DNA of 21,674 nt from Candidatus Izemoplasmatales bacterium (GTDB taxonomy: Bacteria > Bacillota_I > Bacilli_A > Izemoplasmatales > Hujiaoplasmataceae), in contig JAQVTV010000001.1 of assembly GCA_028699855.1 (NCBI GenBank), forward strand, positions 1 through 21,674. The letters are read 5' to 3'. Under the pieces are notes generated by a model. It was not told the DNA's origin. It ran no database searches and was given only the letters and a program-made list of their open reading frames with translations. Shown in pieces: positions 1,398 to 21,628 of the stretch (positions are counted from its first letter, which is position 1; every line of letters starts with the position of its first letter). Both the position numbers and the translations under genes were made by a program.

Positions 1398-3551
1398 CTA
1401 TTCTTCCTTAGAAGCGAATATATATAGTCTGTGTGTATAGCGATTGATTGTTTTTGTTTGACAAAGTCGGTAAAACTCTTTTTTCAATAATTTCGAATTT
1501 TTCTTGGATAAGCGCGATAGATATGGCAACAACGACGCATTTGCAAAATTATCTACAAGAGATTCATATTCACGTCCGTCACTTTCAACGCTTTCTACAG
1601 TGATATTCGAAAAACCGATGTCGTATAATAGTTGTTCCATTTCTTGTTTTGTAGGATAAAACAATGGAACAGTCCAATTTTCATAATAATGATCATATTC
1701 CAACGAGGATATCGCTTCTTTTACCACATCATGCAAACCACAATAACTGTTTTTCCCTCCCTGGTGAATGGAGATCCTTCCACCAGCGGCTAACGCTTCG
1801 TAGATTTTTTGATAAATCTCCTTTCCGTTTGTTATCCAATGTAGTGATGCGTTGCTAATGATGATGTTGTATTTGTTCGTCTCGGTAAGATTATATGCGT
1901 CGAATTGAAAAAAGTGAATTTGTTCTTTGGAATAACCCGCATCGTTGCGGTTTTTAATTGCAATATCAATTTGCGATTCGTTTATATCAAATGCATCGAT
2001 ATTTACTGTCTTGTTTTTTTCAAAAAACTTGATTGTTGTTTTTCCGTTTCCACACCCAATGTCAAGAATGTAAGAATGGTTTGGAATGAATGTATGGTTA
2101 AGAAGGTAATCTGATTGAGCATATTGTGTTTGAGAAGACGCATCATACTTTGAGCCATCAAACACAACTTCTCGTTCGAGAGAATAGGATAAATTTGTCA
2201 TTGAGGATAGCTTGATTGTGTGTTTGATATTTGTTATGTTAATTTTGTTTTCAACCAATAATGCATCAAGGATTTTAAATATGGCTTGAACGTTGCTTGT
2301 GAAGCCATCTAGCACGGGGTCTACAACACAAATTTTGTAAAGTAGTTTTTCCCAATGTAGCAGATGAGTTATGTTGTTCTCTACAATATCATCCATGTTG
2401 CTTTTTGCAAATTCATAGACAAAATCACTTTCATCCCAACTTTTAAAGTCAGGGTTGGCACACAAATAATTATAGATTTTAGGGTATGCTTGTTGAATAC
2501 AGATAAGCACGATATTTAAGAGTTTCATTGTTTCACTGGACAATATTCTATATTTTGATTGATCGTATATGTAACTGAGATTAACCGCGTTTATTAATCT
2601 TTTTATTCTCCTCGGATTATTACCGACTGTATATTTTACTGAGTTCATAATTTGTGAATACGTAAGGTGTGAAAATTCGTCTAGTTCAGATATATAGTTC
2701 ATTTGTAGCAAGGAGGCAGTTATCATTTTTTTAATATCGTAACTTAGGACAGGCATTACAAACGGTAATTGAATCATTTTGTCGAAGTAAGACCGATAAT
2801 ATACTTCATCCTTAGCCTTGTACTCGCCATATTTGCGCCGCAAACCCTTGACGATTACTTCATAATCAATCGCTAAGATAAAAATACAGTATTTAATTTC
2901 AAAGATGTTTTTAAAAATATCGATTAGTTGAACCGCATTAACGGGTTCGATGCGATCCAAATCATCAATAAAAAACACAAAACCGCCCTTTGTAATATTT
3001 TTGTCTTCTTCAACCAGTTTCCTAATTAATGATTCAATGCTGTTTCTTAGGTTTTTGACAAGGTTAACGTTGTTTTTATCAAACAAGCCCAAGACACTTT
3101 TTCTTGCCGATTCATCAACCCCAACCGAAGAAAGCAACACGTTGACAGCTCGTTGAGAGAAATCTCTGAGCGCATCGAGTATTGTTTTTACCTCGCTTGT
3201 ATATGATTTACCCTTTGCCTTTCCAATTTTTGTTATGCGATTGATGATCGAAAGAATTACTTTTTCAATCGAATTTTCTTTATTATCAAGATAATACTCC
3301 CACGTATTGATCCATATAGACTCATACCCAACACCATTATCCTGAGACATATTTTTTTCAATCAAATGCATTAATGATGTTTTTCCTGAACCCCATTCAC
3401 CCTGTATGGACACCGTTATGGGTGTGTCAGATTTTAGCAAGAAAGCGACCAGCGATTCAGCGTGATGATTTAAGTTAAGCAAGTCATGTTCTTTGTCATC
3501 GATGGGAAGATCGCGCATATCAAGATAGTTGAATGTTTTTGTCATGTTCAT
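1398..3551 (-). CDS. KAP-type P-loop NTPase fused to SAM-dependent methyltransferase
   Basis: The protein has 717 residues and two parts. Residues 1 to about 440 are a KAP-family P-loop NTPase: Walker A GEWGSGKTS (51-59), Walker B FFIDDLDR (193-200), the following DIF-NIF / ILAIDYEV segment, and a GNNPRRIKRLINAVN motif (310-324). Most KAP proteins have membrane helices between Walker A and B; none is visible here, so it should be soluble. Residues about 455-717 are a class I methyltransferase resembling trans-aconitate/BioC-type enzymes: motif I ILDIGCGNGKT (495-505), acidic FDIN (521-524), FDAYNL (550-555) and SNASLHWI (566-573). The first ATG is chosen because a GAGGGA site (3561-3566) lies 9 bases upstream. 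No ribosome site precedes the internal Met451 (2201), supporting one fused product. PifA of plasmid F, a KAP protein, excludes phage T7, so a defence role is possible but unproven. Confidence 0.88.
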   Translation of the reverse strand: MNMTKTFNYLDMRDLPIDDKEHDLLNLNHHAESLVAFLLKSDTPITVSIQGEWGSGKTSLMHLIEKNMSQDNGVGYESIWINTWEYYLDNKENSIEKVILSIINRITKIGKAKGKSYTSEVKTILDALRDFSQRAVNVLLSSVGVDESARKSVLGLFDKNNVNLVKNLRNSIESLIRKLVEEDKNITKGGFVFFIDDLDRIEPVNAVQLIDIFKNIFEIKYCIFILAIDYEVIVKGLRRKYGEYKAKDEVYYRSYFDKMIQLPFVMPVLSYDIKKMITASLLQMNYISELDEFSHLTYSQIMNSVKYTVGNNPRRIKRLINAVNLSYIYDQSKYRILSSETMKLLNIVLICIQQAYPKIYNYLCANPDFKSWDESDFVYEFAKSNMDDIVENNITHLLHWEKLLYKICVVDPVLDGFTSNVQAIFKILDALLVENKINITNIKHTIKLSSMTNLSYSLEREVVFDGSKYDASSQTQYAQSDYLLNHTFIPNHSYILDIGCGNGKTTIKFFEKNKTVNIDAFDINESQIDIAIKNRNDAGYSKEQIHFFQFDAYNLTETNKYNIIISNASLHWITNGKEIYQKIYEALAAGGRISIHQGGKNSYCGLHDVVKEAISSLEYDHYYENWTVPLFYPTKQEMEQLLYDIGFSNITVESVESDGREYESLVDNFANASLLPYLSRLSKKNSKLLKKEFYRLCQTKTINRYTHRLYIFASKEE

Positions 3552-6797: not shown

Positions 6798-7814
6798 TTA
6801 ATCTAGTTTTCTCCCGATCGCTGTGGCGATGCGTCGACAACCATCCATCAGCGATTGGAAGCGTTCGGGTTTGAGGGATTGTTGCCCATCACTCAAGGCT
6901 TTTTCCGGTTCGTGATGCACTTCGATGATCAAACCATCCGCGCCCGCGGCAATCGAAGCTTTTGCGAGGGCTTCAACATATTCCCAGCGGCCCGCGGCGT
7001 GCGAGGGATCGACAATAACCGGGAGGTGCGATAGTTTCTTCAAGACCGGGATGGAACTGATGTCCAAAGTCGAGCGTGTAGCTGTCTCAAAAGTGCGTAT
7101 GCCGCGCTCGCATAAGATGACGTTCCGATTTCCGCCGGCAAGGATATATTCTGCGGACATCAACCATTCTTCGATCGTGTTCGCAAGACCGCGCTTCAGA
7201 AGAATCGGTACTTGTGTTTTTCCGAGTTCTTTGAGCAGACTGAAGTTTTGCATGTTGCGTGCGCCGACCTGCAACAAATCAACCGTCCCGACAAAATAAT
7301 CCAAATCTTCCACACTCATGATTTCACTGACGACCGGCATGTTGAAGCGGGCTCCGGCGTGTTTGAGAATCCCCAGGCCGTCGCCCCCAACCCCCTGAAA
7401 CGAGTAGGGACTAGTTCTTGGTTTGTAAGCTCCGCCACGGAGGATTCGTGCGCCGGCAGAAGCGACCAAGGGAGCGATGGTTTCAACTTGTTCTTGGGAT
7501 TCCACGGCACACGGACCGGCCATGACGACGATGTTTTCGCCCCCAATCATCACGCCGGATACATCAATGATGGAATTGTCCGGGTGAAACTTGCGGTTGA
7601 CTTGTTTGAATGGTTCCTGAACGCGCAAAACACTATCGATAAAGTCGTATGCGTACAAGCTTTCTTGATCGAATTTCGAAGTGTCTCCCACGACACCAAA
7701 GATGGTGATGGATGATCCAATGCTTTCGTGAATCTCAAAACCGAGATCCATTAATTTTGTTTTCAGGAGATCTGCGTTTTCCTTCAGGGTGCCTTCTTTG
7801 AGTTTGATAATCAT
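6798..7814 (-). CDS. aroF: 3-deoxy-7-phosphoheptulonate (DAHP) synthase, type I-beta
   Basis: Condenses phosphoenolpyruvate with erythrose 4-phosphate, the first step of the shikimate pathway. At 338 residues it matches the Thermotoga-like form: an N-terminal ferredoxin-like (ACT-like) domain of about 80 residues, known in that form to bind aromatic amino acids as feedback inhibitors, then the TIM barrel. Motifs seen: AGPCAVES (99-106), RGGAYKPRTSPYSFQG (126-141), VGARNMQNF, KRGL, ERGIRTFE and IVDPSHAAG near the C-terminus. There is no fused chorismate mutase domain. The ATG overlaps the aroQ stop as ATGA, so it is translationally coupled and last in the operon, although it encodes the first enzyme. 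Confidence 0.95.
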   Translation of the reverse strand: MIIKLKEGTLKENADLLKTKLMDLGFEIHESIGSSITIFGVVGDTSKFDQESLYAYDFIDSVLRVQEPFKQVNRKFHPDNSIIDVSGVMIGGENIVVMAGPCAVESQEQVETIAPLVASAGARILRGGAYKPRTSPYSFQGVGGDGLGILKHAGARFNMPVVSEIMSVEDLDYFVGTVDLLQVGARNMQNFSLLKELGKTQVPILLKRGLANTIEEWLMSAEYILAGGNRNVILCERGIRTFETATRSTLDISSIPVLKKLSHLPVIVDPSHAAGRWEYVEALAKASIAAGADGLIIEVHHEPEKALSDGQQSLKPERFQSLMDGCRRIATAIGRKLD

Positions 7815-8248
7815 TTTGTTGTTTGTCCTTTCGTGAGTGAGTCAAGGGCTTCAAGGTATCCTTGGATTCCTTTGCCTGATATTTGTTTGATACATGCGGG
7901 AGCAATGACGGATACTTTGCGGAACGCTTCTCGCTGGTGGATATCGGAAAGATGTACTTCGATCGCGGGAATAGGAACGGATTTCAAACAATCATAAATG
8001 GCATAAGAATAATGGGTAAAGGCACCGGGATTGATGATGATGCAATCTATCTTATGGCGATATTTTTGTATGAGATCGATAATGGAGCCTTCATGGTTTG
8101 TTTGTTTGAGGTAGACTTTATGTCCAAATCGTTTCGCATGGGTGGAGACGGCCTGTACGAGGTCACGATAGGTACTTTTGCCATAAATATCAGGCTCTCT
8201 CTCGCCCAAAAGATTAATGTTGGGTCCGTTTATGACTAAAATATTCAT
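7811..8248 (-). CDS. aroQ: 3-dehydroquinate dehydratase, type II
   Basis: Removes water from 3-dehydroquinate to give 3-dehydroshikimate. The 145-residue length is typical of the dodecameric type II enzyme. Seen: NGPNINLLGEREPDIYG with catalytic Tyr22, INPGAFTHYSYAI, and EVHLSDIHQREAFR with catalytic His99, then a SVIAPACIKQISGKG ending. The ATG lies 35 bases inside the end of the aroE/K gene, but AGAGGA about 9 bases upstream and the canonical N-terminus support it. It is coupled to aroF by an ATGA overlap. Confidence 0.95.
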   Translation of the reverse strand: MNILVINGPNINLLGEREPDIYGKSTYRDLVQAVSTHAKRFGHKVYLKQTNHEGSIIDLIQKYRHKIDCIIINPGAFTHYSYAIYDCLKSVPIPAIEVHLSDIHQREAFRKVSVIAPACIKQISGKGIQGYLEALDSLTKGQTTK

Positions 8249-9479
8249 TGATTTTCCTCTCGACTTCTTGGATATGAACGGTGATATCGCCGGTTAGTTT
8301 GAAAGTGATATCCGCATGTTTTTGGTAGAGCGGACCGCGAATTTCGGCCAACCGATACAAATCATCGGCGTTTTGCATGAGTGGACGGTTGCGTATTTGA
8401 TGCTTAAGAATTTCTGCGGGATCTTTATCAAGATAGATGATCAGCCCGTTTTGTTTCAAAAGATCCATAAGTTCGGAATTCATGATCATTCCACCGCCGG
8501 TGGAGATGATCTGGTTGTGGGAGCGATATACGTTTTTGATTAAATCGAACTCAAGTTTCCGAAAGGCTTTTTCGCCTTGTGTCCGAAATATGTCCACAAT
8601 CGATATCCCTGCATTTTTCTCGATTTCTCTGTCTGTATCGATATAATGTTTTCTAAATAAAGGCTCCAATCGTCGTGCGTAAAGTGATTTTCCCGACATA
8701 GGTAGGCCTACGAAAACGAGGTTCGTCATCTTTGCCCTGAGTTTATTGTAGTTTTTGTTCAGTTCGCTCAAGGGTGTTTCTTTGTGAAAGAAACGATCGT
8801 GAGACCCCTTTGCTTGGGCGACCAGCATATATAAACCATTATAGGCGGGAATGTTGAGTGATTCGGCCTCAAGCAACCACTTCGTTTTGAGCGGGTTGTA
8901 AATCAAATCCATCACGCATGTGAGGTGGGTGAATGGTTTGAGCGAGAACAAAGGGGTATCGCTGTTGTGTGGATACATTCCGATGGGCGTTGTGTTGATG
9001 ATGATCTCAAAGTCGTGAAAACGATTGATGTCCTGCAAGGGGTATTCGTTTGTCTCGCGAACGCTCCGACACGCCTTAACAACGCGATCGGCGTGAAGAT
9101 CACGCGCAAGCAAAGCGACAGTTTTAGCGGCTCCGCCGTTGCCAACAATCAACACCTTCTTGTTTTCAATAGATATTTTATGGTATTCCAGAGAAAGTTT
9201 CAATCCTTGATAATCGGTATTATATCCCTTCAACAAGCCGTTCTCATTGATGATGGTGTTGACAGAACCGATTCTCTCAGCCAAAGGATCGATGGCACCG
9301 AGAAAGGGAATGACCGCTTCTTTGTAGGGAATGGTCACATTGATGCCACGAAATGATTTGTGATTCAAAAATGCGCTGATGTCATCGAGTTCGATGATGC
9401 GGTACTGGGCATTGCCGAACAACGAATGGACATAAGGTGAGAAACTGTGCGTCAGTTGACGACCGATCAGTCCGTACAT
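8214..9479 (-). CDS. aroE-aroK: Bifunctional shikimate dehydrogenase / shikimate kinase
   Basis: A 421-residue fusion of two consecutive enzymes. Residues 1 to about 248 are AroE, which reduces 3-dehydroshikimate with NADPH: YGLIG...SPYVH, NVTIPYK with catalytic Lys53, NTDYQG with Asp89, and the nucleotide loop GNGGAAKT (113-120). Residues 251-421 are AroK, which phosphorylates shikimate with ATP: P-loop GLPMSGKS (258-265), YIDTD (279-283), FRKLE (306-310), STGGG (326-330) and the lid arginine in RNRPL. The P-loop has Met where many kinases have Gly, but GxxxxGKS is intact. ATG 9479 is preferred to TTG 9491 because it gives the canonical AroE N-terminus. Met251 has an AGGG five bases upstream, so separate kinase synthesis from 8729 is conceivable. 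Confidence 0.93.
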   Translation of the reverse strand: MYGLIGRQLTHSFSPYVHSLFGNAQYRIIELDDISAFLNHKSFRGINVTIPYKEAVIPFLGAIDPLAERIGSVNTIINENGLLKGYNTDYQGLKLSLEYHKISIENKKVLIVGNGGAAKTVALLARDLHADRVVKACRSVRETNEYPLQDINRFHDFEIIINTTPIGMYPHNSDTPLFSLKPFTHLTCVMDLIYNPLKTKWLLEAESLNIPAYNGLYMLVAQAKGSHDRFFHKETPLSELNKNYNKLRAKMTNLVFVGLPMSGKSLYARRLEPLFRKHYIDTDREIEKNAGISIVDIFRTQGEKAFRKLEFDLIKNVYRSHNQIISTGGGMIMNSELMDLLKQNGLIIYLDKDPAEILKHQIRNRPLMQNADDLYRLAEIRGPLYQKHADITFKLTGDITVHIQEVERKINEYFSHKRTQH

Positions 9480-10573
9480 GACTGGTACCAATCCCAGCGA
9501 TGCTTCGCCACAAGGAGATCGAGAACGACAAAAGCGGATACCGCGTTGATGACGGGAAGCGCACGATGAACAATGGCGGGATCGTGACGCCCCGCGATTT
9601 GGATGGTCGCTGGCTGTTTCAATTCCAAATGGACGGTTGTTTGTTCTTTTGAGATGGAAGGCGTCGGTTTGATTGCGGTTTTGAATAGGATGGGCGAACC
9701 CAAAGAGATGCCTCCCGATATACCACCTTGATGATCAGATGCGGTCGTGATGGTAGAACGGTGGTAGATGAAGGCGTCATTCACTTCGCTGCCATATTTT
9801 TCCGTGAGGGCAAATCCGTCTCCGAATTCGATGCCCTTAACTGCGGGAATTGAAAAGATCGCCTTTGACAGACACGACTCAAATGATAGAAAGTATGGTT
9901 CGCCACAGCCCACCGGAACATTCAATAACACGGTTTCAATGATTCCACCCACGGAATCTCCCGTATTTTTCGCAGCCAGGATTTCCGCCTTCATCAATGG
10001 TTCCACAGATGCCTCAAGGACAGGAAAATCGCTGGAATTCAATGTTTTCAAGTGTTCTTCGTTGAAGTGTTCTCTGCGAAAAGGGGCATCTTGGATCGTT
10101 TTGATTCGATGGATATGTGAAGCGATGAGGATTGAATGCTTCTGTAGGATTTGTTCGGCGATTGCGCCCACAACCACCCACAAAGCTGTCATCCTTCCGG
10201 AAAACATCCCGCCGCCACGAGGGTCGTTGTAGCCGTTGTATTTGATGTGTGCGGGATAATCCGCATGAGCCGGGCGCGGTGTGTTTTTATACGCTTCATA
10301 ATCGGATGAACGCACATCGGCGTTATGGATGACGACGACAAGCGGAGCGCCGGTCGTCCGCTCTTGATAATATCCGGATGCGATCTCAAATTGATCCGGC
10401 TCGCTTCTTTGGGTAGCGTATGCGCCTTTGGGACGCCTTTTATCGAGGTGGTCGCGGATAAATGCCTCATCTATCGCGATTCCGGGAGGCAACCCATCGA
10501 TGGCCACGCCGATGATAGAAGCGTGGGATGTGCCAAAAAACGTAATTTTGATATATTCACCCAAGGTGTTCAT
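9467..10573 (-). CDS. aroC: Chorismate synthase
   Basis: Converts EPSP to chorismate, the last common step, using reduced FMN that is not consumed. The 368-residue protein shows FGTSHASIIGVAIDGLPPG at the N-terminus, RRPKG, TQRSEPDQFEI, TTGAPLVVVIHN, SSDYEAYKNTPRPAHAD, RGGGMFSGRMTA, GDSVGGIIE, GGISGGISLGSPI and the C-terminal GRHDP signature. The ATG follows GAGGTG at a good distance and overlaps the end of aroB by 17 bases; its own end overlaps aroE/K by 13. Single-function chorismate synthases need an external flavin reductase; a flavin-reductase-like gene lies just upstream of the operon in the opposite direction (13858-14376). Confidence 0.96.
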   Translation of the reverse strand: MNTLGEYIKITFFGTSHASIIGVAIDGLPPGIAIDEAFIRDHLDKRRPKGAYATQRSEPDQFEIASGYYQERTTGAPLVVVIHNADVRSSDYEAYKNTPRPAHADYPAHIKYNGYNDPRGGGMFSGRMTALWVVVGAIAEQILQKHSILIASHIHRIKTIQDAPFRREHFNEEHLKTLNSSDFPVLEASVEPLMKAEILAAKNTGDSVGGIIETVLLNVPVGCGEPYFLSFESCLSKAIFSIPAVKGIEFGDGFALTEKYGSEVNDAFIYHRSTITTASDHQGGISGGISLGSPILFKTAIKPTPSISKEQTTVHLELKQPATIQIAGRHDPAIVHRALPVINAVSAFVVLDLLVAKHRWDWYQSCTD

Positions 10574-11588
10574 TTGGTTTCACCTCATTTATGGGAATGA
10601 TTTCATTGTCGATGACGCAATCACTCAAGTACGCTGAACCGATTACTTTGATGAGCACCATTCGCGCCTGATGGTCGCGATTCTTTTTGTCTTTCGCGAT
10701 ATAGGGTAACAAATCTCGAATCGCAACGTGATCGGTGGTGGGCAGATTGTATTGACGTAAAAGATCCATCAAGCGATGTTTTATGGCGTGATCCAGAGTT
10801 GCATGGACCATCCCGATGGCAACGGCCTCTCCATGAAGATATCGTTCATATCGGTAATGGGCTTCGATGGCATGTCCCAAGGTATGGCCGAAATTGAGCA
10901 GTTGCCGTTCGTTTCGGTCATATTCGTCGATTTCAACGAAATGCTTTTTGATTTCGATCGTACGACGAATCAAAGCCAAAGGTTGGCGATCAAACAAACC
11001 ACCCTCGAGTTGTTCGATGAGCTCTTGATCCGCAATCATCCCACATTTGATCATTTCCGCCACGCCGTTGGCGAGGTGTCTGGGGGGTAAAGTCTTCAGC
11101 GTATTGACATCCACAATCACCATTTTGGGCGGGTAGATCGCGCCGATCGCGTTTTTGGTGTTGTGATGATTGATCCCGACTTTTCCACCAACGGACGAGT
11201 CGATTTGAGCGAGTAGCGATGTGGGAATTTGTACGAAATCGATTCCGCGCATATAGGTTGCGGCGACAAAACCCGCGAGATCTCCGGTCACACCGCCGCC
11301 TAATGCGATGATGGTGGCATTTTTGAGCACGTTCGCTTCGAGCATGGTGGTGCAGATTTTGTCCCATTGAGCCATACTTTTCGCGTTTTCTCCTTGAGGA
11401 AACACAATCTCAAGACACTGCGGCAAAGCATTGAGGATTTTTTGGACATAAGCTTGAGGTATTCTGGAATCGTGGATCAGCACATATGAAGTCTTTGCAT
11501 CAAGGAACGTATGGATTTGGTCAAGAAGATTCTCGCCGATATGGACAGGGTAGGAGGCGTGACGGGACTGGATATGGATTGTTTTCAC
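10557..11588 (-). CDS. aroB: 3-dehydroquinate synthase
   Basis: Cyclises DAHP to 3-dehydroquinate with NAD+ and a divalent metal. From the chosen start it is 343 residues. Seen: GGGVTGDLAGFVAA (NAD contact), QIPTSLLAQIDSSVGGKVGIN, KNAIGAIYPP, and the metal ligands in GVAEMIK (Glu), NFGHTLGHAIE (His) and LHGEAVAIGM (His). The GTG at 11588 is preferred over the longer frame from 11642: GGAGG (11598-11602) lies nine bases upstream, the protein then begins with the usual first beta-strand, and the overlap with aroA becomes a four-base gap. Confidence 0.95.
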   Translation of the reverse strand: MKTIHIQSRHASYPVHIGENLLDQIHTFLDAKTSYVLIHDSRIPQAYVQKILNALPQCLEIVFPQGENAKSMAQWDKICTTMLEANVLKNATIIALGGGVTGDLAGFVAATYMRGIDFVQIPTSLLAQIDSSVGGKVGINHHNTKNAIGAIYPPKMVIVDVNTLKTLPPRHLANGVAEMIKCGMIADQELIEQLEGGLFDRQPLALIRRTIEIKKHFVEIDEYDRNERQLLNFGHTLGHAIEAHYRYERYLHGEAVAIGMVHATLDHAIKHRLMDLLRQYNLPTTDHVAIRDLLPYIAKDKKNRDHQARMVLIKVIGSAYLSDCVIDNEIIPINEVKPNEHLG

Positions 11589-11592
11589 TATG

Positions 11593-12858
11593 TTAATCCT
11601 CCACAACGGTGAATTGACCACCGATCGACTTGAAATCTTCAAAAAATCGGGGGTAAGATTTATTCACGGCTTCGGCGTGCTTGATTGTCACTTGCTTCTT
11701 GCAGCGGATGGAGGCGATTGCGAGAGCCATGACAATCCGATGATCGTTGAACGAATCAAAAACACCACCTTCGAACTCCGGTTGACCTTCGATGATGAGA
11801 CCATCATCCAGCAACTGTGTGGACACACCCAAACCTTTAAGTGTGTGTTCGATCGAACTCAGACGATTGGATTCTTTGTATTTCAAGCGACCGGCGTTGA
11901 CGATACGGCTTGTGCCTTGGGAGGACGCGGCCAATATCGCTAAAATCGGGGCGATATCCGGGGATTGTGATACGTCATACACGACGCCCGTAGTCTGTGA
12001 TTGATGAAAAGTGATGCCTTCGGGACCGGTGGAGTAATGGCCGCCTGATGCGAGAATGCAATCCAGGATCCGATAATCGGGTTGTAATGAATCCAATTCG
12101 ATGTTTTTGCATAATATATCATTGCCGATGAGACCGGCAACGGCAAAAAAGGCCAGTTGTGAAAAATCACCTTCGATCTTGAGTGATATCGGACGGTAAG
12201 ATTGATTGCCTTTGATTTCGTATACATCGTTGTGTTCATGAATGACGATTCCGGATTTTCTCAACATGTCGCACGTCATATCGACATAGCCCTTCGATTC
12301 GTATTTTCCGGTGACACGGATTCGCGAATCCTCTTTTGCGAGGGGCAAAGCAAAGAGCAACCCGGAGATGAATTGGCTACTGATGTTTCCTGGTATGTCG
12401 TAATGACCTCCGGGTAGCCCTCCGGAGATGATCAATGTGTCTTCGTTTTTTTGATATTGAAGTCCGAGATTTCGAAACAACGACTCATAAATACCCAAAG
12501 GTCGTTGAAACAGACTTTTCTTGCCGGTGAACACGACTTTTTGTCGTGACAACGTCATAATCGGTATCAACAAGCGTAAAGTGGACCCTGATTCGTTGCA
12601 ATCGATGAAATTATCGTCGGTGATGACGATTCTGCCTGTGGCATTCACAATCAACTGATTGGGGTTTTGAATACATTTCGCACCGATTTTTTCCATAGCG
12701 GCGATTGTAGCCAAAACATCTTCGCTATAGGCCATGTTGGAGAGGATGCTTTTGCCTCTGGCGAGGGAAGCGGCGATGATGGTGCGGTGTGATTGGCTTT
12801 TGGATGGCGGGATTTTGATGCTTCCTTTGAGTGATTGAGGGTGGATGATGATATTCAT
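11593..12858 (-). CDS. aroA: 3-phosphoshikimate 1-carboxyvinyltransferase (EPSP synthase)
   Basis: Transfers the enolpyruvyl group from PEP to shikimate 3-phosphate. The 421-residue protein has PPSKSQSHR (17-25) with Lys20 and Arg25, NESGSTLR (88-95), FQRPLG (117-122), SSQFISGLLFALP (160-172), EGDFSQLAFF (229-238), catalytic Asp301 in QSPDIAP, KESNRL (328-333) and DHRIVMA. The PEP loop reads SGST rather than the NAGT of class I enzymes such as E. coli AroA, so glyphosate behaviour cannot be assumed. The ATG overlaps the tyrA stop as ATGA, so translation is coupled. Length and motifs are complete. Confidence 0.96.
   Translation of the reverse strand: MNIIIHPQSLKGSIKIPPSKSQSHRTIIAASLARGKSILSNMAYSEDVLATIAAMEKIGAKCIQNPNQLIVNATGRIVITDDNFIDCNESGSTLRLLIPIMTLSRQKVVFTGKKSLFQRPLGIYESLFRNLGLQYQKNEDTLIISGGLPGGHYDIPGNISSQFISGLLFALPLAKEDSRIRVTGKYESKGYVDMTCDMLRKSGIVIHEHNDVYEIKGNQSYRPISLKIEGDFSQLAFFAVAGLIGNDILCKNIELDSLQPDYRILDCILASGGHYSTGPEGITFHQSQTTGVVYDVSQSPDIAPILAILAASSQGTSRIVNAGRLKYKESNRLSSIEHTLKGLGVSTQLLDDGLIIEGQPEFEGGVFDSFNDHRIVMALAIASIRCKKQVTIKHAEAVNKSYPRFFEDFKSIGGQFTVVED
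11598..11602 (-). promoter_or_regulatory. Ribosome binding site that decides the aroB start
   Basis: GGAGG on the minus strand sits inside the last codons of aroA, nine bases before the GTG at 11588. The alternative start at 11642 has no comparable site. Confidence 0.7.
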
Positions 12859-13700
12859 TCTTTCACATCCTTTTCAATCGAAAAACGTCTTTCCTTGGCC
12901 AGTTTCATCAGGGAAACCAGCGTTTGGACATCGTTGTTTTGAATAGCGTCCTTGTAGCGCGAAAGCGAATCGATGAATTGATCAATCCTGGGGATCAGAT
13001 GCGCGTGATTTGCGATTAACAAATCACTCCATAGTTTTTCGTTAATCATCGCGATTCGGGTCAGGTCACGATAGGAATCGCCGATAAAACGCGCGGTTTG
13101 AAAATGGAAGTCGTCCGCATCTACCAATGCGAGCGACAATACGTGGGTTAACTGTGAAGTATAAGCGATGATTTCATCGTGGGCTTCAGGCGACAGATCA
13201 GTGATGGTGCCAAACCCCATTTCTCGCGCGAACTCGCGCACGAGCTCGAGATGTTCCGGCGTGTTTCGATCCGTGGGAACGATGACGAAATTCTGCTTAT
13301 TGAAGATGGATGGATTGGCATGGCGCACGCCGATTTTTTCTCTTCCGGCAATCGGGTGTGTCATCACGAGATCCAAATCTTGACGAAGGAAGGGCAGGAG
13401 ATCTTTCACGAATTTGGTTTTAATGCCCGCAATTTCGATCAATACCGTGTTTGAAGAGAAAGCGAGCTGATGGTCTTTGATGAAGGTGATGATATCGTTG
13501 GGGTACAAACACAAGAAAACTACCTGAACCTTTTGGGCAAAATCCGTCAGATTCCGGGACATTTCGTGGATGATTTTGTGATTCATCGCATATTGGAGTG
13601 CGTCCTCGTTGATATCATATGCGACGATATGATGACGTTGTTGGAGCGCTTGCGCGATTGACCCCCCCATTAGGCCGAGTCCGATGATGCCGACATTCAT
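12855..13700 (-). CDS. tyrA: Prephenate dehydrogenase
   Basis: Oxidatively decarboxylates prephenate to 4-hydroxyphenylpyruvate, the tyrosine branch. The 281-residue protein has an N-terminal Rossmann motif GLGLMGGSIA (7-16) followed by an aspartate in VAYDIN that suggests NAD+ preference, and THPIAGRE (114-121) with catalytic His115, then an all-helical C-terminal dimerisation domain. There is no ACT domain and no chorismate mutase domain, so feedback control by a fused regulatory domain is absent. It is the first gene of the aro operon, with an AGGTGG ribosome site, an extended -10 just upstream, and a 4-base overlap with aroA. Confidence 0.94.
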   Translation of the reverse strand: MNVGIIGLGLMGGSIAQALQQRHHIVAYDINEDALQYAMNHKIIHEMSRNLTDFAQKVQVVFLCLYPNDIITFIKDHQLAFSSNTVLIEIAGIKTKFVKDLLPFLRQDLDLVMTHPIAGREKIGVRHANPSIFNKQNFVIVPTDRNTPEHLELVREFAREMGFGTITDLSPEAHDEIIAYTSQLTHVLSLALVDADDFHFQTARFIGDSYRDLTRIAMINEKLWSDLLIANHAHLIPRIDQFIDSLSRYKDAIQNNDVQTLVSLMKLAKERRFSIEKDVKE

Positions 13701-17008: not shown

Positions 17009-17039
17009 GGAGTCGAGAAAAATATAGGAGGATTTAAGT

Positions 17040-17981
17040 GTGAAAAAATTGCTTTTAGGAATGATGGGGTTATTGGTATTTACGATGATCGGATGCGGAG
17101 GCAATACAACGGCATTTTCATTTGATGCATCGCGAAACATTACAGTGTATACACGAGATACGACTTCAGGAACGCGGGATGCATTTTTTACAGGGATTGA
17201 TTTTTCTGATGCGATTACGAGCAATGGAGTGTTAGTCGCAAATTATGTCGAAGTCGATGGGAACGGAAGCATGATTACTTCTGTCAAAAACGACATCTAT
17301 GGCATCGGCTATATTTCTTTGGCTTCCCTGGAAACATCAGGACTCAAAGGGCTTGTGTTCGATGGGGTTGCCGCAACTGAAGCGAATGTATTGAATGGAA
17401 CCTATACATTGAAACGCCCGTTCAATTATATGACACGCGCCCATTGGAGCGGCATGGAGAGAGAACGACAAATCGTCGAAGCGTTCGTGGCATTCATGAC
17501 GACCATCGAAGGGATTGCGACGATTCAAAACAAAGCGGGAATCATTTCGGTGGAAGCAAACACGCCTTCATGGGATGATATTAAGAGTCTTTATCCTGTT
17601 TGCCTAGAGGATAATTCAGATGTAACGATATACTTTGGTGGGTCAACATCTGTCGAGTCCGTTGCCAAAGCTTTGAGTCAGGAATTCAGTCAAAAATGTG
17701 GGAACTTTATCGCCGAACATAACCATACCGGATCGGGAGACGCTTATAAGCGTACCCAAGGCAGTGAAGCTGATGGCGGGAATAAACTTCATATTGGGTT
17801 CGCATCCAGAGATTTCAAATCTTCTGAAAGCGGAGATGAAGGAACATCCGGATTCATCTGCTTTGACGCGGTAGTGCTTGTGGTCAACCAAGCCAACACG
17901 GCAATCGATTCCATCACCAAGTCCGAAGCGAAAAAAGTATATTCTGGCGACAAAACGCTTTGGTCATCCCTCAATCCCTAA
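17040..17981 (+). CDS. pstS: Phosphate-binding lipoprotein, PstS type with permuted motif order
   Basis: Extracellular binding protein of the phosphate ABC transporter. It has a basic, hydrophobic signal and an MIGC lipobox with Cys19 (Met at -3 is slightly unusual). The PstS motifs are all present but in a rotated order. Residues 34-171 match the C-terminal half of ordinary PstS: TTSGTRDAFF (41-50), GIGYISL (88-94), NGTYTLKRPF (119-128) and the helix with TIEGIATIQ. Residues 194-311 match the N-terminal half: IYFGGSTSVESVAKAL (197-212), HTGSGDA (229-235), IGFASRDFK (252-260), FDAVVLVVNQAN (275-286) and KKVYSGDKTLWSSL (298-311). GTG 17040 follows AGGAGG (17026-17031) by eight bases. pstC starts about 20 bases after its stop. 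Confidence 0.9.
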   Translation: MKKLLLGMMGLLVFTMIGCGGNTTAFSFDASRNITVYTRDTTSGTRDAFFTGIDFSDAITSNGVLVANYVEVDGNGSMITSVKNDIYGIGYISLASLETSGLKGLVFDGVAATEANVLNGTYTLKRPFNYMTRAHWSGMERERQIVEAFVAFMTTIEGIATIQNKAGIISVEANTPSWDDIKSLYPVCLEDNSDVTIYFGGSTSVESVAKALSQEFSQKCGNFIAEHNHTGSGDAYKRTQGSEADGGNKLHIGFASRDFKSSESGDEGTSGFICFDAVVLVVNQANTAIDSITKSEAKKVYSGDKTLWSSLNP

Positions 17982-18001
17982 GACGATTTGAGGAAGCTGC
18001 G

Positions 18002-18961
18002 TTGATTGTTAAGATTGAGCCCGAAGCCAATAGACGGACACAGAAAAGCAAACGTTTTATATGGATGAAGCATAGCGATAGTTTCATGAAGGGCTTGTTA
18101 ATGGTTCCGACCTTGATGAGCGCATCGTTTGTCATCTTTATTGTGGGGTTCATTTCCCGAAAGGGGATAGCCCCTTTTCTGCCGTCAGTATACGGTTCGG
18201 AACGCGTCAATGCATTCAGTTTTTTATCGGGGACAACGTGGTTTGTTCCGCCGAATGTATACGGTATTCTTTTTATTGTGATTAACACGCTCTATATTGT
18301 CGCGCTCTCAACCTTGATCTCCGTTCCGTTATCGGTGGCGTCTGCATTATTTGTCACGCGGATTCTTCCGAAAAAACTTCAAGGAGTGTTCAAGAGTATC
18401 ATCGAATTGCTTGCGGCGATTCCATCGGTAATCTATGGGGTTTTCGGTTTGGGAATCATTGCCAAGTCTGTCGTGCGATTGGCGGAGTTGTTTCATGCAC
18501 AAACCGCTGGAGGAATCTCAACACTTACCACAATCATTGTGTTGGCAATTATGATCTATCCAACAATCACAATGATGTCCGTCGCAGCGATTTCAGCGGT
18601 GGATCCCGCTTTGGAACATCATTCTTTGGCGCTTGGAGCAACCAAAGTTCAAACCATGACAAAAGTCACGCTGGCTTCTGCAAAGCCAGGAATTTTCACC
18701 GGCATCATTTTGGGCGTGGGACGCGCACTTGGCGAGGCTACCGCTGTCAGCATGGTCGCCGGCAATGCCGGAAGCGGGCCATCATTGATGTTGTTCTCAA
18801 CCACGCGGACACTGACGTCGACGATGCTATTGGGATTAAAGGAAACAAGCGGTATGGATTATGATATTCGTTTTTCGGTGGGGTTAGTACTTATCGGGGT
18901 GATTTTTGTGAGTAATTTTATACTGGCGCATTTCAAGAAGAAAGTGGGACGATTCTCATGA
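18002..18961 (+). CDS. pstC: Phosphate ABC transporter permease PstC
   Basis: One of the two membrane subunits of the phosphate importer. About six hydrophobic helices are visible, with AAIPSVIYGVFGL (138-150) and the EAA-type cytoplasmic loop contacting PstB, VDPALEHHSLALGAT through AKPGIFTG (about 202-234), then GVGRALGEATAVSMVAGN. The start is uncertain: TTG 18002, giving 319 residues, follows GAGGAAG (17990-17996) by five bases, whereas the longer frame from 17960 overlaps pstS and has no ribosome site, and ATG 18065 would give a shorter N-terminal tail. The N-terminal 20-30 residues are basic and polar. The stop overlaps the pstA start as ATGA. Confidence 0.92.
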   Translation: MIVKIEPEANRRTQKSKRFIWMKHSDSFMKGLLMVPTLMSASFVIFIVGFISRKGIAPFLPSVYGSERVNAFSFLSGTTWFVPPNVYGILFIVINTLYIVALSTLISVPLSVASALFVTRILPKKLQGVFKSIIELLAAIPSVIYGVFGLGIIAKSVVRLAELFHAQTAGGISTLTTIIVLAIMIYPTITMMSVAAISAVDPALEHHSLALGATKVQTMTKVTLASAKPGIFTGIILGVGRALGEATAVSMVAGNAGSGPSLMLFSTTRTLTSTMLLGLKETSGMDYDIRFSVGLVLIGVIFVSNFILAHFKKKVGRFS

Positions 18962-20160
18962 AGCAACGTGTCCGCAAGGCGAAAGATACGTTTTTACTTG
19001 GAGGCATATCGATGATGTCGCTTGTCGGCGTGATGGTGCTGGCTTTGATCATGGGTTTTATCATCAATCGCGGGGTCGGGTTGTTGACATGGGATTTGCT
19101 CATCGGGGATTATCATCCGACGACGTATAATCTTTCATTGCCCACGACGGAATCGTTGGGCGGCTTTGCTCGACCGAATGATTTGGATGAATCCGCCTTT
19201 TTTTCACAGATGTGGGGATTGGGGTTAATGGATGATGTCGATTTTGAAGGAAAAGCCGTGGTACGCGTGATTTATGTGGATGCACAATCTCCATTACAGA
19301 TGATGCGTGATAAAAATAATCTTGAGCGTGTGGTTGGTTTGTTTCCGGGCCTCGCATTGGAAAAAGTCATTTTTTCCGATCTAACTATTGGATTAAGTCG
19401 CACCAAGGCCGAAAATTTCATCATCTTATTCGATACACACGAAGGAATCAACGACCTTTTGGCGGTTTCTTCAGGAAACGGTATCCGTGGAGCAATCATC
19501 ACGACGGGGCTTTTGATAGGATTTGCTTTAATGATTGCTTTGCCGATTGGCATTTTTTCTGCGGTATATCTTCACGAATTTGCGCCAAAAAACAACGCAT
19601 TTATTCACACAATGAGAAAGATGATCGATACATTGAGCGGGGTGCCATCCATCGTCTATGGCCTCATGGGCGCGGCGGTGTTCATCCCTTTCACTTCCCG
19701 CATCAGCAAAGCAGAAGGTGGAAATCTGTTCTCGGGCGCACTTACTTTGGCGGTGATGGTGCTGCCAATCATCATATCTGCGACCATTGATGCTTTGAGG
19801 GCGGTGCCGGATGATTATCGTAAAGCATCACTTGCTTTAGGTGCGAATCATACGCAGACAACATTTAGGATTGTGATCAAATCGGCGGTTCCGGGAATCA
19901 TGTCGGCAGTATTGTTAAGCGTTGGGAGGATGATTGGCGAATCAGCCGCGCTCATCTACGCGGTCGGCACCGCTATCAAGGACCACATCATCCTCACCGA
20001 GAAATCCGCATCGCTGGCGGTATTTATTTGGAGCGTTATGGCGGGAGAGGTTCCCAATTTTGAACTTGCTTGTTCCGTAGCCATCATTATCATGATGGTG
20101 GTTCTATTCATCAATGTGCTGATTAAACTTGTGGCGCGACGCTTTGCATTATTACCTTGA
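18958..20160 (+). CDS. pstA: Phosphate ABC transporter permease PstA with large extracytoplasmic insert
   Basis: The second membrane subunit. TM1 is at about 14-37; the next typical PstA segment, [15 protein letters not shown] (173-187), comes only after an additional stretch of about 120 residues (about 50-170). From there the protein is ordinary: [16 protein letters not shown] (195-210), [14 protein letters not shown] (225-238), EAA-type loop [20 protein letters not shown] through AVPGIMSA (277-316) and [10 protein letters not shown] (323-332). It is 400 residues against roughly 280-300 for most PstA proteins. The insert is polar, with beta-like runs such as [13 protein letters not shown] (100-112) and NFIILFDT, and should lie outside the membrane, next to the binding protein. 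I do not recognise the inserted domain. Confidence 0.93.
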
Positions 20161-20171
20161 GGAGGAAGACA

Positions 20172-20924
20172 ATGAACACATTTGACGTTCGCGAGCTCGT
20201 ATTGACATATGATGGGAAGGCCGCGCTACAACATGTTTCTATGAATATCATTCCCAAACAAGTGACGGCACTCATTGGACCATCGGGGTGTGGCAAATCA
20301 TCATTGCTCAGATGTTTGAATCGGATGAACGATTTGATTGATGGATGCAATGTGGAGGGAGAGATATTGTTTCATGGTGAAAATATCTATGCGAAAAACT
20401 ATAATGTATATGAATTGCGGACAAAAGTCGGTATGGTATTCCAAAAACCCTCCCCGTTTCCGATGAGTATTTTTGATAATGTTGCGTACGGACCACGATG
20501 TCAAGGAATTAATGATAAAAAAACATTGGAAAACATTGTAAAAAAGGCCTTGGTTGATGCTGCATTATATGATGAGGTCAAAGAGCGTCTCAAAGAAAGC
20601 GCAATGGCGCTTTCTGGCGGACAGCAACAACGCCTTTCCATTGCGCGCACCATCGCGATGCAACCAGAAGTGATTTTGATGGATGAGCCCACGAGCGCAC
20701 TTGACCCGATTGCTACAGGCAAAATCGAAGAACTCATTTTCGATTTGAAGAAGCATTATACCATTGTCATCGTGACGCATAACATGCAACAAGCCGCAAG
20801 AATATCGGATTATACAGCTTTTTTTCTGATGGGTAATCTAGTGGAATTCAACACGACTGAGCAGATATTTCGTCAGCCAACCCAAGCCAAGACGGAAGAA
20901 TATATCACCGGTCGATTTGGATAA
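20172..20924 (+). CDS. pstB: Phosphate ABC transporter ATP-binding protein PstB
   Basis: The cytoplasmic ATPase that drives phosphate import. The 250-residue protein has every expected motif: Walker [10 protein letters not shown] (36-44), the PstB-typical [10 protein letters not shown] (49-58), Q-loop [11 protein letters not shown] (90-100), signature LSGGQQQR (147-154), Walker [14 protein letters not shown] (167-179) and switch His203 in [11 protein letters not shown] 20172 is chosen because GAGGAGG (20159-20165) lies six bases upstream; the in-frame TTG at 20157 is upstream of that site and overlaps the pstA stop. Confidence 0.97.
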
Positions 20925-20980
20925 AAACACTGCATCTGATTTTCATTATGGGTTATAATAATATTAAGGAGTGGACTTGT

Positions 20981-21628
20981 GTGACTTCAAGAAAACAGTT
21001 TGATCAAGAATTGGCATCATTAAAACTCAATTTGGTACAAATGGGCGATCTGGTCATCCGTCACATCAACGAGGGACTTGATTCTTTTGTGCGCCTCGAT
21101 GTAGATTTGGCCAACCAAGTCATTATCAGTGATAAAGCAGTCAATGAATATGAACATAGCATTGAAAAAAATTGTCTCGGCATTATTTTGCGAGAACAAC
21201 CTGTGGCAAGTGATCTGCGTTTAATTACAGCGGTTTTGAAGATGATTACGGATTTGGAACGCATCGGCGATCACGCCGCGGATATTTCGAAGATGGCGTT
21301 GTTTATGGAAAAAACGCAAACATATTATCGTGTTGATGATATATTCGGGATGATGAATGTGTGTCAGGAAATGATTCGTCATGCCTTGGAATCGTTTGTC
21401 GCTTCGGATCTTGTACTTGCTCAATCGGTTATCTCAGCCGATGACACGGTCGATCATTTGTTTGAGAAAACCAAGAAACACGTCGCGAATGCATTAAGAA
21501 ATGCCGCGGTTGACGCCGATTACGCTATTTATTTAATGATGGTGGCCAAATATTTGGAACGCATCGGCGATCATGCTGTGAACATTGCTGAATGGGTCAT
21601 CTTTTCTATGACCGGAGAACACGTTTAA
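20981..21628 (+). CDS. phoU: Phosphate-specific transport regulator PhoU
   Basis: A 215-residue, all-helical protein with two PhoU repeats, each with the metal-binding motif: DLERIGDHAADI (91-102) and YLERIGDHAVNIAE (191-204). PhoU links the Pst transporter to the PhoR/PhoB-type two-component system and represses it when phosphate is plentiful. GTG 20981 is the best start: AAGGAG (20966-20971) precedes it by nine bases, and the protein then has the usual length. The open frame from ATG 20948 lacks a ribosome site. A TATAAT at 20954-20959 could be an internal promoter, but the transcript would begin at the ribosome site itself, so this is doubtful. Confidence 0.95.
   Translation: MTSRKQFDQELASLKLNLVQMGDLVIRHINEGLDSFVRLDVDLANQVIISDKAVNEYEHSIEKNCLGIILREQPVASDLRLITAVLKMITDLERIGDHAADISKMALFMEKTQTYYRVDDIFGMMNVCQEMIRHALESFVASDLVLAQSVISADDTVDHLFEKTKKHVANALRNAAVDADYAIYLMMVAKYLERIGDHAVNIAEWVIFSMTGEHV

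Follow-up and report, generated by a model that had tools for sequence, protein, structure and literature searches.

PstS is a textbook protein whose ordinary form, represented by the PDB entries 4gd5, 4q8r and 1twy and by the profiles TIGR02136 and PF12849, carries its N-terminal half (N) ahead of its C-terminal half (C), an order that occurs across phyla. Permuted binding proteins have already been described (PMC4990184, PMC2395249), and PMC4990184 presents TpMglB-2 (Tp0684), a glucose-binding lipoprotein of "Type Ic / Cluster Bc", as naturally permuted and found mostly in treponemes and Gram-positive bacteria. TpMglB-2 is, however, kin of the type I / cluster B sugar-binding proteins and not of PstS. 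Here we analyse a 21,674-nucleotide stretch of Candidatus Izemoplasmatales bacterium (contig JAQVTV010000001.1, positions 1 to 21,674, forward strand), hereafter the window, in which the gene at 17040..17981 (+; GTG start, 313 aa) encodes a protein sharing its halves, motifs and operon with ordinary PstS, but with the half order reversed (C-N), the GG-hinge lost and the old ends linked. This protein is very probably a naturally permuted phosphate-binding lipoprotein (PstS) of a PstSCAB-PhoU importer, and the permuted form an old and widespread subfamily, in which a second change most likely proceeded by duplication and loss of outer parts and the first would, by analogy, have done the same.

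The same C-N order is found in 4h1x, the PstS2 of Streptococcus pneumoniae ("Phosphate-binding protein pstS 2"; entry title SP_2084), available in the PDB since 2012, which falls in a separate group of permuted PstS in our trees. In the two members of the 4h1x group with annotated neighbours, PstA has an ordinary length (274 aa in Monoglobus and 288 aa in T. saccharophilum, vs 400 aa in the window). The first-pass annotation knew of no such described PstS form, which does not hold for the form itself, common and already solved, but does hold for its name: no text calling PstS permuted was found in the open-licence literature, a scope outside which lie subscription papers and PDB remarks, and the main text of a 2025 structure paper naming two pneumococcal PstS has no word starting with "permut" (PMC12421899). 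A large permuted branch of a textbook protein, including a solved pneumococcal structure, thus seems to lack its label. Many of its genes are named only "substrate-binding domain-containing protein", while JGI calls some of them phosphate-binding.

Circular permutation of the window protein

Behind a signal peptide and lipobox ending at Cys19 (17040..17096, +; signal peptide judged by eye, Cys19 from the alignment), the C half of PstS comes first (approximately residues 31-172; 17130..17555, +), followed by a linker between the former C- and N-termini (approximately residues 173-190; 17556..17609, +) and by the N half (approximately residues 191-312; 17610..17975, +). The limits of the halves were drawn from profile and alignment, those of the linker from profile and predicted structure, and the gene itself from the open reading frame list and its TIGR02136 match. 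The motifs of the C half, SGTRDAF (43-49), GIGYISL (88-94) and NGTY-L-RP (119-127), precede those of the N half, GGSTSV (200-205), GSG (231-233), SR (256-257), VVN (281-283) and SG---W (302-308), where the first-pass annotation had placed them (residues 41-128 and 201-308). Each motif occurs once, hence there is neither truncation nor internal repeat. The profile agrees with this earlier reading of a permutation rather than a truncation: in TIGR02136 (NCBIfam), residues 31-167 match model positions 161-291 and window positions 17619-17981 match model positions 39-158, so that both halves of the model are present and, coming in reverse order, are swapped. PF12849 is also split in two stretches, the better one joining residues 197-310 to model positions 12-125.

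Comparison with the PDB gave the same picture. Ordinary PstS (4q8r, 4gd5 and 1twy) align to the window protein in two pieces of swapped order, whereas 4h1x aligns in one run (29-311 = 6-264). Among the 11 PDB sequences matched by a profile of 50 homologues, only 4h1x has a best stretch that covers both halves (25-308 = 4-264). The glycine-betaine-binding proteins OpuAC (2b4l) and ProX (1r9l) bind another ligand, show 12-13% identity and are not PstS.

The mature window sequence was then turned through all 290 positions and each rotation aligned to 12 ordinary PstS: five belonging to the window's own phylum, plus one representative each of Vibrio, Subdoligranulum, Limosilactobacillus, Collinsella, Bacteroides, Gloeothece and Ilyobacter. 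As the first-pass annotation had anticipated, the rotated order outscored the native one against 12/12 of them, with best first residues all within 125-201 (for example 274 rotated vs 172 native, the best of 100 shuffles reaching 53-64). In the controls, three of three permuted proteins scored best in native order and all four ordinary-ordinary pairs scored best unrotated. Rotation also merged the two profile stretches into one, raising TIGR02136 from 114.8 to 123.4 bits (model 40-291) and PF12849 from 54.9 to 68.2. The TIGR02136 scores of two other permuted PstS rose likewise, from 189.2 to 197.8 in Trichococcus (single stretch 40-294) and from 188.8 to 199.1 in Monoglobus (40-293). The order of N before C that marks ordinary PstS is therefore missing from the window protein by profile and by rotation, and since its C half stands ahead of its N half, the protein is a permuted variant and not an ordinary member.

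The predicted structure is a single two-lobed PstS-like fold, as had been proposed, with PstS as best structural matches and no TpMglB-2-like Type Ic protein among the 50 matches listed. The new ends fall at one natural hinge, in line with the first-pass annotation. In all 13 permuted proteins printed, the domain begins at an I-x-V-x-x-R strand and stops at W-x-x-[LIV] (one with F for W), while the 10 ordinary proteins printed (9 loci) all carry at this point a five- or six-residue hinge with GG. The linker across the old ends spans 12-23 residues in permuted proteins, according to profile limits. Sequence, profile and predicted fold together support a circular permutation of the window PstS with new ends at the hinge. 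An artefact of assembly or annotation would be conceivable from the state of the window's genome, incomplete and in 242 contigs. The order is nonetheless repeated in L058, a record titled complete genome, and in isolates, A. laidlawii and A. granularum among them, and the crystal structure 4h1x shows it too, so that this explanation is already refuted and retains practically no credit.

The residues R39, S43-G44-T45, the GGS-S and GS loops, S256-R257 and D276 are invariant or nearly so in the permuted alignment and have invariant counterparts in the ordinary one; R39 and S43-G44-T45 lie in the C half and GGSTSV, GSG, SR and D276 in the N half. Phosphate is bound in E. coli PstS by residues of the corresponding motifs (R, SGT, GS-S, GS, SR, D). 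With these residues conserved, the trap should work with its lipid anchor on the hinge strand instead of the N lobe. The chain would be lipidated at Cys19, which is unchanged in all rows of the 50-row homologue alignment. The mature chain would begin at the hinge strand that usually enters the second lobe, form the C half, cross the short linker joining the old ends, form the N half and end at the hinge. The resulting two-lobed trap, as in ordinary PstS, would hold phosphate between residues of both halves (R39, S43-G44-T45; GSTS, GSG, S256-R257) and pass it on to PstCA.

What weighs against this identification is that the window protein, even rotated, stays far under the curated PstS cut-off of TIGR02136 (123.4 vs 206.6), so that phosphate is a ligand we infer. 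The rotated Trichococcus and Monoglobus proteins miss this cut-off as well, while an ordinary PstS of the same phylum passes it with 229; curated PstS models give low scores partly owing to the swapped order. The low score would also suit binding of an oxyanion other than phosphate, which the conserved phosphate-site motifs and the pstCAB-phoU operon make improbable. The displaced anchor offers a test of whether the geometry of tethering affects hand-over to the transporter. For TpMglB-2, its authors suggest in PMC4990184 that the altered topology might ease tether strain, an idea that may, by analogy, apply to permuted PstS.

Distribution of the permuted form

A search of 392 genomes of the phylum with the permuted profile matched at least 131. 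Counted by hand among the matches listed, 78 genomes carry a full-length permuted protein, 3 a permuted protein matched piecewise, 1 a re-permuted one and 25 the ordinary order (23 checked on fetched loci, and G163 and G318 through the ordinary profile), G234 having both orders; 25 more are without class. All 80 named loci are C-first (75 C-N, with a frameshift in L090; 3 C-N-C-N; 1 C-N-C-N-C-N; 1 C-N-C), which is no census because the query was itself permuted. Carriers among them include Acholeplasma laidlawii, A. granularum, A. oculi, Izemoplasmatales and a Haloplasmataceae bacterium. The best 120 relatives of the 4h1x sequence comprise 117 C-N proteins, 2 with the C half only and 1 N-C-N, with Streptococcus, Granulicatella, Trichococcus, Carnobacterium and Bavariicoccus among the named ones. 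Permuted PstS also occur in Roseburia/Lachnospiraceae, and in Monoglobus and Treponema saccharophilum, where each heads pstC-pstA-pstB-phoU. Judged by sequence, the permuted form is present in many Gram-positive bacteria as well as in their wall-less relatives, and the homologues that the first-pass annotation had proposed to look for are thus plentiful.

In G234, a permuted and an ordinary pstS (L119, L120) are each followed by their own pstC-pstA-pstB, with a PstA of 408 aa beside the permuted gene and of 280 aa beside the ordinary one. A tie between permutation and long PstA was considered and is not supported: long PstA tracks the window-type clade, and the other permuted PstS of L124, L126, L129-L131, L173 and L177 adjoin PstA frames of 278-297 aa. 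In two other loci, L010 and L066, a 367-aa frame holds a permuted PstS with a shortened N half that runs in frame into a tail that resembles a histidine kinase by eye, through either deletion or misassembly.

Tandem proteins and the origin of the permutations

Circular permutation by duplication is described in PMC3320104, which predicts tandem and partly truncated intermediates. In-frame tandems of permuted PstS were found in seven genomes: C-N-C-N frames of 593-678 codons in G148 (on one 1.88-Mb contig), G015, G117, G297 (= L094), G166 (= L106) and L079, and a C-N-C-N-C-N frame of 910 codons in L049. Copies within one protein are 79-97% identical (85-98% in DNA; five measured), too diverged in three of the five for these to be assembly doublets. 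In the five tandems that come from the searched genomes, the N-C stretch in the middle has the ordinary order and is matched by the ordinary model.

The PstS of Haploplasma modicum ATCC 29102 (L109) shows a further order, C-tail (profile 104-136), N (1-120), C-body (2-101). Its frame has 315 codons (309 aa counted from the first ATG) and a lipoprotein-like start. The pstC frame starts 8 bases downstream, and an identical protein is present in G239, on a contig equal in length. TIGR02136 matches it in a single stretch (model 13-259), and five residues separate N and C, as in ordinary PstS. Its nearest relative is the plain C-N protein of A. granularum (support 100/98 in a 62-row tree, 97 in a 98-row quick tree), hence this near-ordinary order is derived and not retained. 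Removing most of the first C, the tail of the second C and the second N from a C-N-C-N protein gives the H. modicum order; this derivation, drawn from one isolate with no parent tandem known, makes duplication followed by outer-part loss the most likely route of the second permutation. It is weakened by G148, which shares genus g67 with H. modicum, yet is not its sister in the PstS tree, so that the G148 tandem is not the direct parent.

Acholeplasmatales-type lineages have seen several in-frame duplications of the gene, and H. modicum a further permutation. We consider it somewhat probable that the half order is fluid, with an old change from N-C to C-N, recurrent in-frame tandems and a second, near-reversing permutation in H. 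modicum. This would be a serial, near-reversing natural circular permutation within a single protein family, tandem forms of the intermediate type still occurring in the bacterial family concerned, and these tandem and re-permuted relatives allow the duplication model to be tested in one family.

For the first permutation, taking N-C as ancestral, the same route appears most likely by analogy with the second change in H. modicum. The tandem duplication and outer-half loss advanced by the first-pass annotation fits the second permutation and the in-frame tandems; of the duplicated intermediates that it had suggested looking for in relatives, C-N-C-N tandems exist, but no trustworthy N-C-N-C or N-C-N form was found for the first change. 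No N-C-N-C tandem occurred among the matches listed when the 392 genomes were searched with the ordinary profile. Six longer frames with ordinary-type matches (L190-L195, 342-502 codons) were fetched and are PstS-like, with N ahead of C and, by eye, membrane helices at the N-terminus; longer ordinary-type frames in G243 and G214 lie outside this set. Four N-C-N proteins (P0235, P0241, P0242 and P0248) were rejected as intermediates, an assembly chimera or very recent recombination being likelier. Their first N half is 100% identical between P0235 and P0241 and between P0242 and P0248, with C-N parts only 63-76% alike, and the C-N part of P0235 shares 97-100% identity with a normal permuted protein. 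All four are single-member metagenome clusters, and their junction falls inside the conserved GREAGSGTRGAF motif. Counter to a chimera, N-C-N occurs with two distinct first halves, and the contig of P0248 measures 15.3 kb.

The missing N-C-N-C frame, the chimera-like N-C-N proteins and genomes with two separate neighbouring pstS genes (G319, G290) would also suit a fission of pstS into half genes with reverse fusion, or a recombination of neighbouring pstS genes. We regard this as rather unlikely given the in-frame tandems of seven genomes and the H. modicum form, the expected result of outer-part loss from such a tandem; a half-domain scan of the fetched loci returned one lone half, weak (22 bits) and within an annotated pstC region. 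A short-frame scan of the loci for remnants of lost halves beside permuted genes gave a single match, the frame-shifted remainder of L090's own N half.

Whether the permuted order arose more than once, as a window type, a Lactobacillales/Lachnospiraceae type and a small third group, was weighed on two trees. In the careful 62-row tree (the 98 rows minus 36 with long branches or near-duplicates, by our choice), permuted proteins stand in three places and 0% of 200 bootstrap trees require one change; the 98-row quick tree also splits them into three groups. By the approximately unbiased (AU) test one clade is nevertheless not rejected, either here (p 0.105) or on the quick tree (p 0.637, with a better likelihood for one clade), and the break point is identical in members of all three groups. 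Several origins are accordingly a tentative, lesser possibility; the number lies between one and three, a single origin being neither shown nor rejected. The shared break point favours one origin, although a hinge would also tolerate repeated events.

Operon and neighbouring genes of the window

The permuted pstS, preceded by a ribosome-binding site (AGGAGG, 17026..17031, +, from sequence), heads a pstCAB-phoU operon, as expected of PstS. It is followed by pstC (18065..18961, +; TIGR02138 204.2 bits, cut-off 196.45; ATG start picked by eye in the 17960-18961 frame), by pstA (18958..20160, +; 400 aa, including an additional beta-rich insert at residues ~56-170; TIGR00974 192.4 bits vs a cut-off of 193.45), by a pstB-like ABC ATPase gene (20157..20924, +; PF00005, named from its operon position) and by phoU (20948..21628, +; PF01895). 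A profile search of the window's own genome, 68.5% complete, gave no second PstS match. Elsewhere in the window, judged by eye, a 717-aa protein (1398-3551, -) joins a P-loop NTPase part to a methyltransferase-like part, and a gene run at 6798-13700 (-) resembles aromatic amino-acid biosynthesis; the frame at 8214-9491 (425 aa, -) seems to be a fusion of shikimate dehydrogenase and shikimate kinase.
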